Positions 56,828-63,765 of a stretch of DNA of 64,000 nucleotides are shown here, piece by piece. This DNA is from Rhodothermales bacterium (GTDB lineage: Bacteria > Bacteroidota > Rhodothermia > Rhodothermales > Bin80): NCBI GenBank assembly GCA_958296045.1, contig CATQHT010000003.1, positions 2,792,814-2,856,813 of the forward strand. The letters are read 5' to 3'. The position numbers and the translations under genes were made by a program. The notes under the pieces are model-generated. The model searched no databases and was not told where the DNA came from. It worked only from the letters and a program-made list of their open reading frames with translations. How positions within the stretch are numbered: the stretch's first letter is position 1; each line of letters starts with the position of its first letter.

Positions 56828-56997
56828 CTTGAGCGCAAGACGCGCACAGCAGTTCACAACCAGCCAAGCGCCCAGCGTGCGCCCACCACCGGCATTGTGG
56901 TGGATGCGAACAGCGATCCGAGTAGCCGGTGGCAAAAAGTATCAGACAAGCTACGGGCGTTGGGCATCCAACCTCCAGATCAGATGGAAAGAGAGGC
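56828..56997 (+). pseudogene. Fragment of a possible DUF3226-type gene, cut by intron sequence
   Basis: One frame reads TTGIVVDANSDPSSRWQKVSDKLRALGIQPPDQMERE up to the group II intron 5' end at 56998. The GIVVDAN-DP-RW pattern resembles DUF3226/TOPRIM-like proteins. The upstream part is lost and no downstream continuation was found after the intron array. Weak call. Confidence 0.3.
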
Positions 56998-57122
56998 GTG
57001 CGCCAGGCTAACTGGCGTTAGTACAGGGGGTGCAAGTCCCCCGTTGTGAAAGATTAACCAACTGCACATCTCCTCGAGCCGTGCGTCTGTACTCGCGAGG
57101 GTGCGGGCGAAGCGTCGGTAGA
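56998..57122 (+). mobile_element. Group II intron 5' fragment A
   Basis: Starts GTGCGCCAGGCTAACTGGCG (GUGYG-type 5' end) and runs 125 bp through the CAGGGGGTGCAAGTCCCCCG hairpin to GCGTCGGTAGA, then is replaced by the 5' end of fragment B. Confidence 0.8.
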
Positions 57123-57509
57123 GTGCGCCAGGCTAACTGGCGATAGTACAGGGGGTGCAAGTCCCCCGTTGTGAAAGACTAACCATCTGCACATCTCCTC
57201 GAGCCGTGCGTCTGTACTCGCGAGGGTACAGGCGAAGCGTCGGTAGAGGCGCGTGTGGGCAGGGCTAATGAGCACCGAAAACGCTATCGTCCGGGATGCC
57301 GAGGCTTTTCTATCGGTCGAAGGCAACACCTTCTTTGCCGCTAATGGTGAGGCGGAGGAGGGTCCCGCGGTGTCCAAGAACCCAGGCACGCACGTACGTA
57401 CTACGCCGGGACCTGGGAGGTCTCTCCATTACCCGTCCCTTCGGGGAGGGTCGCCAAAGCGTAGGCTAAATGCTGATCGGAGGATGTACGGTGGAGAGAA
57501 GTCAGATGC
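57123..57509 (+). mobile_element. Group II intron 5' fragment B
   Basis: Begins GTGCGCCAGGCTAACTGGCG again and contains domain I sequence up to GGGAGGTCTCT (57414-57424), then a diverged stretch (about 57425-57509). Followed at once by the 5' end of full intron C. Its domain I part matches copies C and D closely. Confidence 0.8.
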
Positions 57510-57870
57510 GTGCGCCAGGCTAACTGGCGTTAGTACAGGGGGTGCAAGTCCCCCGTTGTGAAAGACTAACCATCTGCACATCTCCTCGAGCCGTGCGTCG
57601 GTACTCGCGAGGGTACAGGCGAAGCGTCGGTAGAGGCGCGTGTGGGCAGGGCTAATGAGCACCGAAAACTTCATCGTCCGGGATGCCGAGACTTTGCATT
57701 TGGTCGAAGGCAACACCTTCTTTGCCGCTAATGGTGAGGCGGAGGAGGGTCCCGCGGTGTCCAAGAACCCAGGCACGCACGTACGTACTACGCCGGGACC
57801 TGGGAGGTCTCCGTGTCACCCTGGAGTCGTTCAGGGTCGCGAAAGAGAGGGTTAATCCCCGTAACTGGAG

Positions 57871-58835
57871 ATGAACGGCATGGAGAAGTCCGATACAGGA
57901 ATAGTAGCTAAGAAAGCAGCGAACAAGGGGCGTAGCCGCCCGGCGGAGCTGCCGGAGCCAAGTCCTGTACCTGAGGGGAAACTGGAAAACTCTAACACTG
58001 TCCGGGCGCGGGATCGGGTAGCGGTGCAACAAGGAGCGGACCGGTTGCGACAATTCGTGAAGCGGAAACCCAAGGAGAAGCTCACGACGCTTCTGCACCA
58101 TATCACGGTGAAATCGCTGCGGCATGCCTTCTATCGTTTAAAGAGGAAGGCAGCGCCAGGCGTGGACGGCGTGACATGGGCGGAGTACGAGGTTGGATTG
58201 ACAGCGCGTTTGGCTGACTTACATGACCGCGTGCACAGCGGAGCGTACCGGGCGATGCCGTCCAGGCGGGTTGAGATACCCAAGCCAGATGGCAGTACAC
58301 GACCGCTCGGCATTGCGGCACTGGAGGACAAGATTGTCCAGGCTGCGGTGGCGATCTGTATCCTGCTCCCGATCTATGAGGAGGAGTTTCTTGACTTCAG
58401 CTATGGGTTTAGGTACAAGCGGAAGGCGCATGATGCGTTGGACGCGTTGGCCTATGCGATCGAGCGTACGAAGGTCAACTGGATTGTTGATGCGGACATA
58501 CGTTCTTTCTTTGACATGGTGGACCAGGGCTGGTTGATTCGGTTTCTGGAGCACCGCATAGCGGACAAACGGGTCATTCGGCTGATCATCAAATGGCTCA
58601 AGGCAGGCGTAATGGAGGCCGGTGTTTTGCGGGACAGTCCGATGGGCACCCCGCAAGGCGCGGTAATTTCGCCGATACTGGCGAATGTGTACCTGCATTA
58701 TGTTCTGGACCTGTGGTACGATAAGCGATGGCGCGTGCGGGTGGCGTGGGGGGAAACCTGCCTTGTCCGTTATGCGGACGACTTTGTGGTAGGCTTCCAG
58801 CGGAAGCACGACGCGCAGCGTTTTCTAAGGGATCT
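57871..58835 (+). CDS. ltrA: Group II intron reverse transcriptase/maturase, 5' part (outer intron C)
   Basis: From ATG 57871 (MNGMEKSDTGIVAKKAANKG). RT blocks: AAPGVDGVTWAEYE, SRRVEIPKPDGSTRPLGIAALEDKIVQ, FSYGFRYKRKAHDAL, VDADIRSFFDMVDQ, DSPMGTPQGAVISPILANVYL, and LVRYADDFVVGF with the catalytic YADD. The frame reaches FLRDL at 58835 and is then interrupted by the inner intron; unspliced it would stop at 58875 after 13 foreign residues. Joined to 60735-61278 it gives 1509 nt (502 residues), the same as copy D. Encoded protein would act as RT and splicing factor for its own intron. Confidence 0.9.
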
Positions 58836-59392
58836 GTGTGTCACGTACAGGCATGGAGGTGAAAGTATGAGGTAGGAAAAAGAGCCTGATAACTGCGTGA
58901 GGGATGGAGGTAGGCCCTCCGCAGCCGCCAGTCAGGTGGAGGCTGCAAACCGCCCACTGCTGCTGCGCTTAAGAGGCGTGGTGGTTAGCGAGCTGGGAAA
59001 AGGCGGGGAAGTACCCCGTCAGGTGCGAGTCGTCGAAGTCGAACGAAAGTGAACCGTCGAAGACGTGTCGAAAAAGATAGACGATGTCAAAACCAGGGTA
59101 GAGATCCGTCCCTGGGACGAGGTCGGAGGGGTCCTGAAGCTTGTCCGATCGGCATCCGGCATATAGGCGGCGAGAGCGCGACTCAGGCCCTTGCGTGGAA
59201 CGTGAGAACCTGTCGGAGTGATGCTAAGGGAGCCTGGCAAGTGGGCAATACCCACAAGTCATTGAGTACCAATGCACTCCACAGGGGCGGACTGTCTCGT
59301 AGTAGTGATGATGATCCTGTAATGGGATCGGAGCGAAGGGGACAGCTCGTGCGGCTAACATCATCAGAGCAACTCAAAAGGGAAGGACTCAG

Positions 59393-60676
59393 ATGAAGAA
59401 AGCAAAGCCGTTTCCAGTCTCCCAGGCTCAGGTCTGGGAGGCATGGCGACGAGTGAAGAGGAACCACGGTGGAGCGGGAGTGGATGGCATGACCCTTGCC
59501 GACTTTGAAGCTAATCTAGAGGACAACCTCTATAAGCTTTGGAATCGTATGGCATCGGGTAGCTACCACCCCAAGCCGGTACGACGGGTGGACATACCCA
59601 AGGCGGATGGGAGTACTCGTCCGTTAGGGATTCCCACGGTGACGGATCGGATTGCCCAGATGGTAGCGAAGATGGCGTTGGAGGAGGATATGGAACGCGA
59701 GTTTCATGAAGACTCGTACGGTTATCGGCCGGGAAAGTCAGCGCATGATGCCCTGAAGAAGACACGTAAGCGCTGCTGGGACAGAGCGTGGGTGTTGGAC
59801 CTGGATATCAAGGCGTTCTTTGACACGATTGACCATACGCTGTTGATGCGTGCTGTACGGAAACATACGAGCGAGAAGTGGCTGCTGCTATATATTCAGC
59901 GGTGGTTGACGGCTCCGGTCGTGATGCCCGATGGAGAGGAGGCAGAGCGGACCATAGGCACCCCGCAAGGGGGCGTAATCAGTCCGATTCTGGCGAATCT
60001 GTTTCTACACTACGCCTTTGACAAGTGGATGACGATCTATTTTCCGACGATACCCTTTGAGCGGTACGCGGACGACATAGTCTGTCACTGCCAGACGGAG
60101 CGCCAAGCACGCAATCTATGGGCAGCACTGGAGCGCCGCTTAGCGAAGTGTGCGCTGTCGCTGCATCCTGAGAAGACCCGGATAGTGTACTGCAAGCAGT
60201 CCAACCGGAAGGGTAACTATCCTGACGTCTCGTTCACCTTTTTAGGCTTTACGTTTAGGCCACGAAGAGTGAAATCCCGAGGCGGAAGGCTATTCACAGG
60301 GTATACGCCTGCCATCAGCCGAAAAGCCGCAAAGGCCATTCGGCAAGATGTGCGTAGCTGGCGCTTGTGTCGGCAGACCTCAAGCAGAATGGAGGATCTC
60401 GCACGGCACTACAATGCTAAGATACGCGGATGGCTGAACTACTACGGGGCCTACAACAAGTGGATCCTGTACCATGTGCTGCAATCCATAGATGGCCATC
60501 TGGTGGCATGGGCCCGACGCAAATACAAGCGGTTGCGGCGCAGCAAGCGCCGCGGATACCGCTGGCTAAGGTCTATGGCCTACCGAAACCCGCACCTGTT
60601 TGCTCACTGGCCGGAGCTCCACGGACCCTCTTTATTCAAATCCAGGCGGCTGCACGAGAAGAGCCGTGTGAGGTGA
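59393..60676 (+). CDS. ltrA: Group II intron reverse transcriptase/maturase of the inner intron
   Basis: 427 residues from ATG 59393. RT blocks: GGAGVDGMTLADFEANLEDN, RRVDIPKADGSTRPLGIPTVTDRI, EDSYGYRPGKSAHDAL, LDLDIKAFFDTIDH, IGTPQGGVISPILANLFLHYAFD, and ERYADDIVCHC with YADD at 225-228. Then SFTFLGFTFRPR and a group II maturase X domain (GWLNYYGAYNKWILYHVLQSIDGHLVAWARRKYKRLR). No HNH endonuclease. The gene ends inside domain V (stop at 60674-60676). Intact, so the inner intron may be active. Confidence 0.95.
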   Translation: MKKAKPFPVSQAQVWEAWRRVKRNHGGAGVDGMTLADFEANLEDNLYKLWNRMASGSYHPKPVRRVDIPKADGSTRPLGIPTVTDRIAQMVAKMALEEDMEREFHEDSYGYRPGKSAHDALKKTRKRCWDRAWVLDLDIKAFFDTIDHTLLMRAVRKHTSEKWLLLYIQRWLTAPVVMPDGEEAERTIGTPQGGVISPILANLFLHYAFDKWMTIYFPTIPFERYADDIVCHCQTERQARNLWAALERRLAKCALSLHPEKTRIVYCKQSNRKGNYPDVSFTFLGFTFRPRRVKSRGGRLFTGYTPAISRKAAKAIRQDVRSWRLCRQTSSRMEDLARHYNAKIRGWLNYYGAYNKWILYHVLQSIDGHLVAWARRKYKRLRRSKRRGYRWLRSMAYRNPHLFAHWPELHGPSLFKSRRLHEKSRVR

Positions 60677-60734
60677 GAGTCTCACGCACGGTTCTGTGAG
60701 AGCCTGGGGGTGAGATTCCCCCAGGCTACTTGAC
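60661..60734 (+). ncRNA. Inner intron domains V and VI
   Basis: Domain V is 60661-60694: GAGCCGTGTGAGG, loop GAGA, paired to CTCACGCACGGTTC, the conserved 34-nt hairpin with the AGC-type catalytic start. Domain VI (60695-60734) is a GC-rich hairpin GCCTGGGGG/CCCCCAGGC followed by TACTTGAC, where the A near the 3' end is the likely branch point. Confidence 0.85.
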
Positions 60735-61278
60735 AGGGCAGCGGATGGCCAAATTTGGCTTATCCCTGCATCCGAAGAAGACTCGCTTGTTGGAATTTGG
60801 GCGGTTTGCGGCGGTGAATCGCCGCAGCCGAGGTGAGGATCGTCCCGAGACGTTTGACTTTCTGGGTTTTACGCATTATTGCCGTAGGGACCGCCGCGGT
60901 CGTTTCGGATTGGGACGGAAACCGGTGGGGAAGCGAATGGCACGAAAGCTGAAAAGCCTGCGTCAGGAGCTTCGCCGTAGGATGCATGCACCGTTACACG
61001 CTACAGCCCAGTGGCTGGGGCGCGTACTTCGGGGATGGCTGAACTACTATGCTGTTCCCACCAGCTTTGTGTTCCTACGAAGGTTCTTTACCCGCCTGAA
61101 GCGTGAATGGATGAAAATAATCCGCAGACGTTCGCAGAAGGATCGCATGACATGGAGTAAGCTGGAGACCATGATTACATGGTGCTGGCCTGCGCTCAAG
61201 ATCAAACACCCCTGGCCTAATCAACGATATGTCGCCATGCACGCCGGTGCGACCCAAGGGAGGAGCCGGATGCGTTAA
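60735..61278 (+). CDS. ltrA: Group II intron reverse transcriptase/maturase, 3' part (outer intron C)
   Basis: Continues the RT of 57871-58835 after the inner intron: GQRMAKFGLSLHPKKTRLLEF, ETFDFLGFTHYCRRDRRGRF, and the maturase X domain LRGWLNYYAVPTSFVFLRRFFTRLKREWMK, ending at 61278 within domain V. Codon phase matches the 5' part only if 58836-60734 is removed. Nearly identical to the same part of copy D. Confidence 0.88.
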
Positions 61279-61334
61279 CGCGCCCGTCCGGATCTGTGCG
61301 GGGGGCCCGGGGAAACCCGGGTCCCTACCGCGAG
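61263..61334 (+). ncRNA. Outer intron C domains V and VI
   Basis: Domain V 61263-61295: GAGCCGGATGCG, TTAA loop, CGCGCCCGTCCGGATCT. Domain VI: GCGG...CCCGGGGAAACCCGGG...CCCTACCGC, with a bulged A seven to eight bases before the end as candidate branch point. The next intron begins immediately at 61335. Confidence 0.85.
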
Positions 61335-61695
61335 GTGCGCCAGGCTAACTGGCGTTAGTACAGGGGGTGCAAGTCCCCCGTTGTGAAAGACTAACCATCT
61401 ACACATCTCCTCGAGCCGTGCGTCTGTACTCGCGAGGGTACAGGCGAAGCGTCGGTAGAGGCGCGTGTGGGCAGGGCTAATGAGCACCGAAAACTTCATC
61501 GTCCGGGATGCCGAGACTATGCATTTGGTCGAAGGCAACACCTTCTTTGCCGCTAATGGTGAGGCGGAGGAGGGTCCCGCGGTGTCCAAGAACCCAGGCA
61601 CGCACGTACGTACTACGCCGGGACCTGGGAGGTCTCCGTGTCACCCTGGAGTCGTTCAGGGTCGCGAAAGAGAGGGTTAATCCCCGTAACTGGAG

Positions 61696-63204
61696 ATGAA
61701 CGACATGGAGAAGTCCGATACAGGAATAGTAGCTAAGAAAGCAGCGAACAAGGGGCGTAGCCGCCCGGCGGAGCTGCCGGAGCCAAGTCCTGTACCTGAG
61801 GGGAAACTGGAAAACTCTAACACTGTCTGGGCGCGGGATCGGGTCGCGGTGCAACAAGGAGCGGACCGGTTGCGACAATTCGTGAAGCGGAAACCCAAGG
61901 AGAAGCTCACGACGCTTCTGCACCATATCACGGTGAAATCGCTGCGGCATGCCTTCTATCGTTTAAAGAGGAAGGCAGCGCCCGGCGTGGACGGCGTGAC
62001 ATGGGCGGAGTACGAGGTTGGATTGACAGCGCGTTTGGCTGACTTACACGACCGCGTACACAGCGGAGCGTACCGGGCGATGCCGTCCAGGCGGGTTGAG
62101 ATACCCAAGCCAGATGGCAGTACACGACCGCTCGGCATTGCGGCACTGGAGGACAAGATTGTCCAGGCTGCGGTGGCGATCTGTATCCTGCTCCCGATCT
62201 ATGAGGAGGAGTTTCTTGACTTCAGCTATGGGTTTAGGTACAAGCGGAAGGCGCATGATGCGTTGGACGCGTTGGCCTATGCGATCGAGCGTACGAAGGT
62301 CAACTGGATTGTTGATGCGGACATACGTTCTTTCTTTGACATGGTGGACCAGGGCTGGCTGATTCGGTTTCTGGAGCACCGCATAGCGGACAAACGGGTC
62401 ATTTGGCTGATCATCAAATGGCTCAAGGCAGGCGTAATGGAGGCCGGTGTTTTGCGGGACAGTCCGATGGGCACCCCGCAAGGCGCGGTTATTTCGCCGA
62501 TACTGGCGAATGTGTACCTGCATTATGCCCTGGACCTGTGGTATGATAAGCGATGGCGCGTGCGGGTGGCGTGGGGAGAAACCTGCCTTGTCCGTTATGC
62601 GGACGACTTTGTGGTAGGCTTCCAGCGGAAGCACGACGCGCAGCGTTTTCTAAGGGATCTAGGGCAGCGGATGGCCAAATTTGGCTTATCCCTGCATCCG
62701 AAGAAGACTCGCTTGTTGGAATTTGGGCGGTTTGCGGCGGTGAATCGCCGCAGCCGAGGTGAGGATCGTCCCGAGACGTTTGACTTTCTGGGTTTTACGC
62801 ATTATTGCCGAAGGGACCGTCGCGGTCGTTTCGGATTGGGACGGAAACCGGTGGGGAAGCGAATGGCACGAAAGCTGAAAAGCCTGCGTCAGGAGCTTCG
62901 CCGTAGGATGCATGCACCGTTACACGCTACAGCCCAGTGGCTGGGGCGCGTACTTCGGGGATGGCTGAACTACTATGCTGTTCCCACCAGCTTTGTGTTT
63001 CTACGAAGGTTCTTTACCCGCCTGAAGCGTGAATGGATGAAAATAATCCGCAGACGTTCGCAGAAGGATCGCATGACATGGAGTAAGCTGGAGACCATGA
63101 TTACATGGTGCTGGCCTGCGCTCAAGATCAAACACCCCTGGCCTAATCAACGAAATGTCGCCATGCACGCCGGTGCGACCCAAGGGAGGAGCCGGATGCG
63201 TTAA
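61696..63204 (+). CDS. ltrA: Group II intron reverse transcriptase/maturase (intron D)
   Basis: 502 residues, uninterrupted. RT motifs as in copy C, with YADD at 301-304 (CLVRYADDFVVGFQ), PQGAVISPILANVYLHYALD, and maturase X domain GWLNYYAVPTSFVF...FFTRLKREWMKIIRRR. An N-terminal extension (about 1-75) is rich in Lys, Pro and Glu. No HNH endonuclease domain, so retargeting would rely on nascent DNA primers. It could act in trans on intron C. Few substitutions separate it from C, so the duplication is recent. Confidence 0.95.
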   Translation: MNDMEKSDTGIVAKKAANKGRSRPAELPEPSPVPEGKLENSNTVWARDRVAVQQGADRLRQFVKRKPKEKLTTLLHHITVKSLRHAFYRLKRKAAPGVDGVTWAEYEVGLTARLADLHDRVHSGAYRAMPSRRVEIPKPDGSTRPLGIAALEDKIVQAAVAICILLPIYEEEFLDFSYGFRYKRKAHDALDALAYAIERTKVNWIVDADIRSFFDMVDQGWLIRFLEHRIADKRVIWLIIKWLKAGVMEAGVLRDSPMGTPQGAVISPILANVYLHYALDLWYDKRWRVRVAWGETCLVRYADDFVVGFQRKHDAQRFLRDLGQRMAKFGLSLHPKKTRLLEFGRFAAVNRRSRGEDRPETFDFLGFTHYCRRDRRGRFGLGRKPVGKRMARKLKSLRQELRRRMHAPLHATAQWLGRVLRGWLNYYAVPTSFVFLRRFFTRLKREWMKIIRRRSQKDRMTWSKLETMITWCWPALKIKHPWPNQRNVAMHAGATQGRSRMR

Positions 63205-63260
63205 CGCGCCCGTCCGGATCTGTGCGGGGGGCCCGGGGAAACCCGGGTCCCTACCGCGAG
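63189..63260 (+). ncRNA. Intron D domains V and VI
   Basis: Same structure and sequence as in intron C (offset 1854 from the 5' end in both): domain V 63189-63221 with TTAA loop, domain VI with bulged A in CCCTACCGC. Confidence 0.85.
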
Positions 63261-63573
63261 GACCATAGTAGCTACGAAGCCAGCGAACAACGCGTGGATG
63301 ACCACGGGGCGGAGCCGGTGGAGCCAAGGGTCGCACCCAAGGGGAAAGCGGAAAGCTGGATTCATGCCGGACTCTGGGCCGGATTTCGTGAATCTGTCCA
63401 TGGCTGTGGACTCAGAGCCACAGTCGGGGCGCAGGTGTACCGCTTACGGCTGGAGGTGGGTATTCCCACTTCCTAACGTCATGCACGCCGGTGCGACCTG
63501 CGGGAGGAGCCGTGTGCGTTAACGCGCACGCACGGATCTGTGCGGGGCCCCAGGGGAAACCCTGGGGCTACCG
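63261..63573 (+). mobile_element. Degenerate group II intron piece E
   Basis: 63261-63400 resembles the RT gene 5' region (ATAGTAGCTA-GAA-GCAGCGAACAA), then sequence is lost, and CATGCACGCCGGTGCGACC leads into a domain V (63507-63539: GAGCCGTGTGCG, TTAA, CGCGCACGCACGGATCT) and domain VI ending CTACCGCGAT at 63573. The domain V stem keeps its pairing although it differs from C/D by compensated changes (GGATGCG/CGCCCGTCC versus GTGTGCG/CGCACGCAC). A third, older intron with a large internal deletion. Confidence 0.75.
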
Positions 63574-63765
63574 CGATGGCGCGTGTGGGCAGGGCTAATG
63601 AGCACCGAAAATTCCATTGTCTGGGATGCCGAGGCTTTGCTTCTGGTCGAAGGCAACATCTTCTTTGCCGCTAATGGTGAGGCGGAGGAGAGTCCCACGG
63701 TGTCTAAGAACCCAGGCACGCACGTACGTACTACGCCGGGACCTGGGAGGTCTCTGTGTCACCAT
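63574..63765 (+). mobile_element. Group II intron domain I fragment F
   Basis: Matches the domain I part of C and D from GGCGCGTGTGGGCAGGGCTA to GGAGGTCTC-GTGTCACC, where the match ends and R1 right-half sequence (ATCAAAACATAAG) begins at 63767-63768. The true 5' start of this copy is missing. Confidence 0.78.

Follow-up and report, generated by a model that had tools for sequence, protein, structure and literature searches.

A four-level nest of group II introns from different lineages in a Rhodothermales bacterium

Introduction

How does one group II intron come to lie, exact to the base, inside another, and how far can such nesting go? The question is raised by a stretch of 64,000 nucleotides (nt) from a Rhodothermales bacterium, hereafter the window (positions 2792814-2856813 of contig C3, CATQHT010000003.1, in the 4.78-Mb, four-contig source assembly GCA_958296045.1). 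In a preliminary description of this DNA, an intron with its own reverse transcriptase (RT) was reported inside the RT gene of a second intron, side by side with an uninterrupted sister copy. Twintrons of this kind are central to ideas on intron multiplication and the origin of spliceosomal introns, and to our knowledge the bacterial cases are few and shallow. Here we describe a four-level nest that very probably grew by one retrohoming event after another, with two intron lineages taking part: O, which has K as a satellite, and I, whose satellite is J. Copies elsewhere in the same genome were mapped on the stretches that bear them, which carry L numbers below.

Results

Based on the mapping of intron copies with exact ends, the architecture in the window is Z[K[O[I],O]], with every feature on the + strand. 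Intron O copy C (57510-61334, 3825 nt) encloses intron I (58836-60734, 1899 nt), which starts with GTGTG and ends with TTGAC. Removal of I leaves 1926 nt, the length of the tandem O copy D (61335-63260), from which C then differs by 20 substitutions (1.04%) and no indels. The junction becomes GGGATCT^AGGGCAGCGG, identical to D, and the two parts of the C RT/maturase gene (57871-58835, 965 nt including the YADD motif; 60735-61278, 544 nt with the maturase/thumb part) join into an open reading frame (ORF) of 1509 nt for 502 amino acids (aa), 99% identical to the protein of D (61696-63204, 502 aa). Unspliced, I cuts the C RT short beyond YADD (ORF 57871-58875). The boundaries of I are unique, as shifted placements never give an identical product; the bookkeeping of the preliminary description was thus accurate.

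That description had also assigned I to another lineage with a domain V and RT of its own, and this proved correct. The RTs of I and O share 38.8% identity over 361 aa, and their cores of domains I-IV (D1-D4) match different Rfam families, RF01999 in I (58906-59024, 106 bits) and RF02005 in O (170.7 bits at 57545-57769 in copy C; 174.2 bits at 61370-61594 in copy D). The 427-aa RT/maturase of I (59393-60676) matches RVT_1, GIIM and TIGR04416 (439 bits), and its domains V-VI (D5-D6; 60659-60734; RF00029, 61.7 bits) fold with a z of -6.6 and a bulge ahead of the 3' end; the RF01999 and RF00029 matches both exceed the gathering score. With a GUGYG 5' end, an AY 3' end, a branch A in D5-D6 and pairing of exon-binding site 1 (EBS1) with intron-binding site 1 (IBS1), I carries the features expected of a group II intron. 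O likewise has D1-D4, an RT/maturase (TIGR04416, 354 bits; GIIM marginally below the Pfam cut-off) and D5-D6, the latter detected in D at 63187-63260 (RF00029, 32.2 bits, E 1.4e-4, below the gathering score; fold z -4.0). One group II intron therefore lies inside another, with an exact empty copy of the host present. As read from sequence, I and O are group II introns of separate lineages, one truly nested in the other, with boundaries exact and domains intact, and splicing of the pair is predicted. Chance can be set aside as a cause of this nest, since the genome holds further I copies of 97-100% identity and further O copies of 97-99%.

The twintron reading captured a true nested pair and was incomplete, as it missed two surrounding layers, K (57123-63577) and a truncated Z. 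D is indeed an uninterrupted copy; its site, on the other hand, is no ordinary exon, as D is a second O at the same site of an ORF-less K. The two O introns divide K into positions 1-387 (57123-57509, matching K 1-388 at 91.5%) and 388-706 (63261-63577, with D5-D6 at 63505-63577, 39.0 bits), and uninterrupted K copies are present elsewhere in the genome. The joined K flanks read GTCGGTAGA^GGCGCGTG, a sequence uninterrupted in copy D. K itself splits Z, an O/K-type intron, into positions 1-125 (56998-57122, 95% identical to O 1-130) and 126-311 (63578-63763), after which Z is truncated, so that this outermost layer cannot splice.

Across the genome we found approximately 60 copies of five intron types, covering an estimated 1.5% of the sequence. 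Besides O (1926 nt, RT of 502 aa) and I (1899 nt, RT of 427 aa), these are K (706 nt, O-like with most of the ORF absent, ending CGCGAT), J (680 nt, I-like and ORF-less) and M, described below. Both D1-D4 and D5-D6 could be detected in each of O, K, I and J, and the RT ORF is intact in the majority of copies.

The O/K introns have a hypervariable loop of 12 nt near positions 182-193, the final seven bases of which pair, in each copy, with the heptamer 5' of that copy's own site. As the position of EBS1 is ambiguous when copies are pooled on one reference intron, the loops were taken copy by copy. O copies at position 387 of K (K387) pair as GCATTTG/CAGATGC (7/7), those at I163 as TCCCATG/TGGGA (5/5) and those at J162 as TTCTTTG/AAGAA (5/5). 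For 30 O/K copies in a fixed register the score was 281, against 89 ± 21 with exons permuted. In the I/J introns a loop at about positions 266-269 likewise pairs with the copy's own site (14 pairs, score 159 against 67.6 ± 14.8); neither score was reached in 20,000 permutations, values that are not strict probabilities because the copies are related. For EBS2, no pairing was established in these introns. Judged by these pairings, the variable loops have the properties of EBS1/IBS1. O copies moreover cluster by target, with ultrafast bootstrap values of 97-100 for {I163}, {J162} and {K387 plus two others}, which indicates that changes in EBS1 founded the subfamilies.

Every layer of the window nest carries such a pairing. 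EBS1 of I (AGATCC, 59102-59107) matches GGATCT (58830-58835) in the O RT gene at 6/6, as retrohoming requires. EBS1 of copy C (GCATTTG, 57696-57702) matches CAGATGC (57503-57509) in K at 7/7, and EBS1 of K (TCTATCG, 57309-57315) matches CGGTAGA (57116-57122) in Z, also at 7/7. EBS1 of Z (GCTTCTG, 63639-63645) pairs at 6/7 with GAGAGGC (56991-56997), with the 6.5-kb insert between them. The identical EBS1 of copy D (GCATTTG, 61521-61527) fits the K site and not the present 5' neighbour of D.

Nesting in this genome is reciprocal and recurrent, and reaches four levels. Twelve of the 14 O copies are situated within other introns, even though introns of these types make up only some 1.5% of the genome: at K387 (window, L019, L020, L023, L024, L025), I163 (L017, L018) or J162 (L018, L021, L022). 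In turn, I is found at O1326 (window, L019), J at O1714 (L018, L020, L021) and I857 (L023), and K at J162 (L023) and J502 (L018, L022). Tandems comprise O-O in the window, I-I in L019 and K-K in L025. Nesting is deepest at L018, I[O[J[O,K]]] (C3:2358230-2365664), and at L023, I[J[K[O]]] (C3:764768-769977). At about 7550-7848 of L018, the O copy is itself interrupted near its domain V by 295 bp that look like a miniature inverted-repeat transposable element (MITE), with CCCAAGTTTGTC/GACAAACTTGGG as inverted ends and CCAA as the duplicated target.

Could such nests be simulated by an assembler that collapsed or mis-joined intron repeats? The repeats are near-identical and 0.7-7 kb long, which invites this error. 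The assembly consists of four large contigs, however, and there are several independent nests in differing combinations. The EBS1 of each nested copy fits the copy's own site, a match that mis-joined repeats would fail to give, and that of Z still fits the Z exon across 6.5 kb. We consider an artefact of this kind scarcely credible.

Among the sampled relatives, RTs resembling that of O reach at most 66% identity and those resembling that of I at most 72%, and a scan of contigs of other genomes returned distant relatives only (39-52%). In view of these RT identities, the intron expansion seems confined, within that sample, to the present genome.

The copies themselves record how the nest was assembled. 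Across all 1899 nt, the window I matches the first I of L019 without a difference, and the O hosts of the two differ at 12 sites, which indicates that I was inserted twice, independently and recently. C differs from D at 20 sites and from the O copy of L020 at 11, so C and D are not sisters. We considered whether the nested copies might instead stem from recombination or tandem duplication between repeats, or from O[I] having moved as a composite. Near-identical repeats are abundant, which favours recombination, and O[I] does occur twice, in the window and in L019. Comparing the copies nevertheless led us to reject a tandem duplication as the source of C and D. Joint movement of O and I was rejected too, as composite copying predicts about 12 differences in I and none is seen. 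Recombination is equally at odds with identical I copies in diverged hosts and with base-exact junctions that carry a matching EBS1. An origin by recombination or composite transfer is thus very unlikely.

M (1968 nt, RT of 456 aa, RF02003) represents a third RT lineage, whose insertion point in other introns falls within the 3' strand of domain V. In K the arrangement is ...CACGGAT-M-CTGTGCGG (L098 1-2886, L099) and in I ...CACGGTT-M-CTGTGAGAG (L030); at L033, L101 and L024, 3' ends of M are joined to I/J-type CTGT...GAGCC. A candidate M EBS1, ATCCGTG, pairs 7/7 with CACGGAT. Relatives of about 62% identity on plasmids of Caballeronia, Bradyrhizobium barranii, B. japonicum and Paraburkholderia phymatum (L117, L118, L121, L122) are likewise preceded by a domain-V strand, with matching EBS1 sequences AACCGTG, AACCGGA and AACCGAG, and other relatives (L116, L119, L108) occupy different sites, which their EBS1 fits.

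Discussion

Successive retrohoming takes in what was observed directly: the anatomy, the exact junctions, confirmed at the nest edges by empty and occupied sites, the EBS1/IBS1 matching, the target-wise clades and the independent insertion of I. Each copy would home by pairing its EBS1 with the final 6-7 bases of the target site, and diversification of EBS1 would aim whole subfamilies at other introns of the same genome, with O subfamilies directed to K387, I163 or J162, I to O1326, and J to O1714 and I857. The tandem of C and D can be accommodated, since an insertion leaves behind IBS1 together with the intron's own first G, a reusable site. A second insertion at IBS1 would land immediately upstream of the older copy, whose first G would stand for the G of the 3' exon; from this landing side, C would be younger than D. 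The present 5' neighbour of D, CCGCGAG, would be a poor partner unless C departs first.

Several points weigh against this account. RT-dependent mobility, the mobilisation of K and J in trans, the order of splicing and its very occurrence are matters that we infer from the sequences, and the assembly of the nests is known from contigs. A few K copies (L047, L051) pair badly with their own exon. Every O copy ends CGCGAG and so lacks the AY 3' end that is customary in group II introns, though not strictly defining. Domain V of O and K (63187-63260 and 63505-63577 in the window; L057 1565) reads GGAUC rather than the customary GGUUC, which sets a G opposite an A at the AGC triad; since a Rhodopirellula relative also has GGAUC, it is a family trait.

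Because insertion is base-exact and without target duplication, splicing in the order I, C, D, K should clear everything. The predicted junction of I is GGGATCT^AGGGCAG, and that of O is GTCAGATGC^GACCATAG, which in the window takes the form CAGATGC^GACCATAG. A full C RT/maturase would require the prior exit of I, and D or another intact O may supply the RT in trans. Neither I in O nor O in K breaks into the ribozyme core of its host: the RT gene that takes up I is part of domain IV of O, and in K the insertion point is what remains of the ORF. Judged by position, domain I of the host is interrupted by O at I163 and J162 and by K at Z125, and for group II introns inner-first splicing is obligatory with such core-interrupting insertions. 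Restoration of the reading frame was rejected as proof of splicing, since an exact, duplication-free insertion restores the frame on either strand, and antisense insertions into genes do occur. From their relatedness and the precedent of Thermosynechococcus elongatus (PMC2882425), K and J are probably mobilised by the RTs of O and I.

The inserted introns might also be past splicing, with the layers forming a graveyard in a non-essential stretch. For the window this has some appeal: the outermost Z is truncated, no 3' half of it was located and no gene was recognised across it, so that the window nest is unable to restore a gene, and some K copies lie antisense in genes, beyond help by splicing. 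The intact RT ORFs of most copies, the intact D5-D6 and the near-identical, recent copies speak against dead nests, as do sense copies within genes for an M1 peptidase and an amidohydrolase-like protein. On balance we regard this explanation as improbable, and prefer introns that were built in by retrohoming and are predicted to splice.

The nest in the window is a known kind of object. In Methanosarcina acetivorans, up to five introns are nested through repeated homing (Dai & Zimmerly 2003, as described in review PMC4424553). Going by that account, those arrays resemble ours in repeated site-specific homing into introns, with no coding exon around and the intron serving as a perpetual homing site; they differ in that the host is an archaeon and homing is into related intron ORFs, whereas here, in a bacterium, two unrelated lineages target each other reciprocally and the sites also include domain I and, for M, domain V. 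The TeI3/TeI4 twintrons of T. elongatus are ORF-less introns within ORF-bearing ones with diversified EBS (PMC2882425). Common to both systems are ORF-less derivatives of an RT-bearing intron, families differing in EBS, a conserved insertion site in other introns, and identical inner copies in diverged outer copies, which point to independent insertion. In T. elongatus, however, all introns come from one ancestor and nesting is ORF-less within RT-bearing at two levels, while here unrelated RT-bearing introns serve as inner and outer partners in both directions, up to four levels. Trichodesmium erythraeum has one group II twintron, with sequential splicing shown in vivo (PMC4649490). It is likewise bacterial with two different RT ORFs, but is a single two-level case in a protein gene with no network of nested families. 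In a limited literature search, reciprocal nesting of several lineages to four levels in a bacterium looks new, as do the insertions into domains I and V.

Dozens of base-exact insertions with matching guide loops in one genome provide a single system for testing EBS1 switching, trans-mobilisation of satellites, forced splicing order and tandem formation. We lean slightly towards a broader reading, a web of introns specialised on introns, in which EBS1 has been retuned to the other lineage, to a lineage's own satellites and, in M and its proteobacterial relatives, to domain V. Domain V is a conserved catalytic sequence that every group II intron must keep. If the reading is true, homing to domain V would offer group II introns a general way of parasitising one another, with the host ribozyme disabled unless the parasite splices first; if confirmed, it would also exploit a site from which host introns cannot readily escape by mutation. 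No description of insertion into domain V by M-type introns was found in the papers searched, all of them open-licence.

Some minor intron insertions complete the picture. At 2877-2907 of the window, 31 bases are identical to the 5' end of J with no further J following, a 5' remnant. K lies antisense in a fused aspartokinase/diaminopimelate decarboxylase gene (L044 1384-2090), a Cmr2-like ORF (L043 1212-1917) and a recombinase-like ORF (L019 2072-8501), the latter two recognised by eye, and in these three ORFs splicing would be no rescue. The sense K copies mentioned above (L037, L042) are in the amidohydrolase-like gene, recognised by eye, and the M1 peptidase gene, recognised by Pfam. At L025, L046, L052 and L095, a gene that looks TnpB-like by eye is present in several copies with K at one and the same position, and K may also have been spread by this host insertion sequence.

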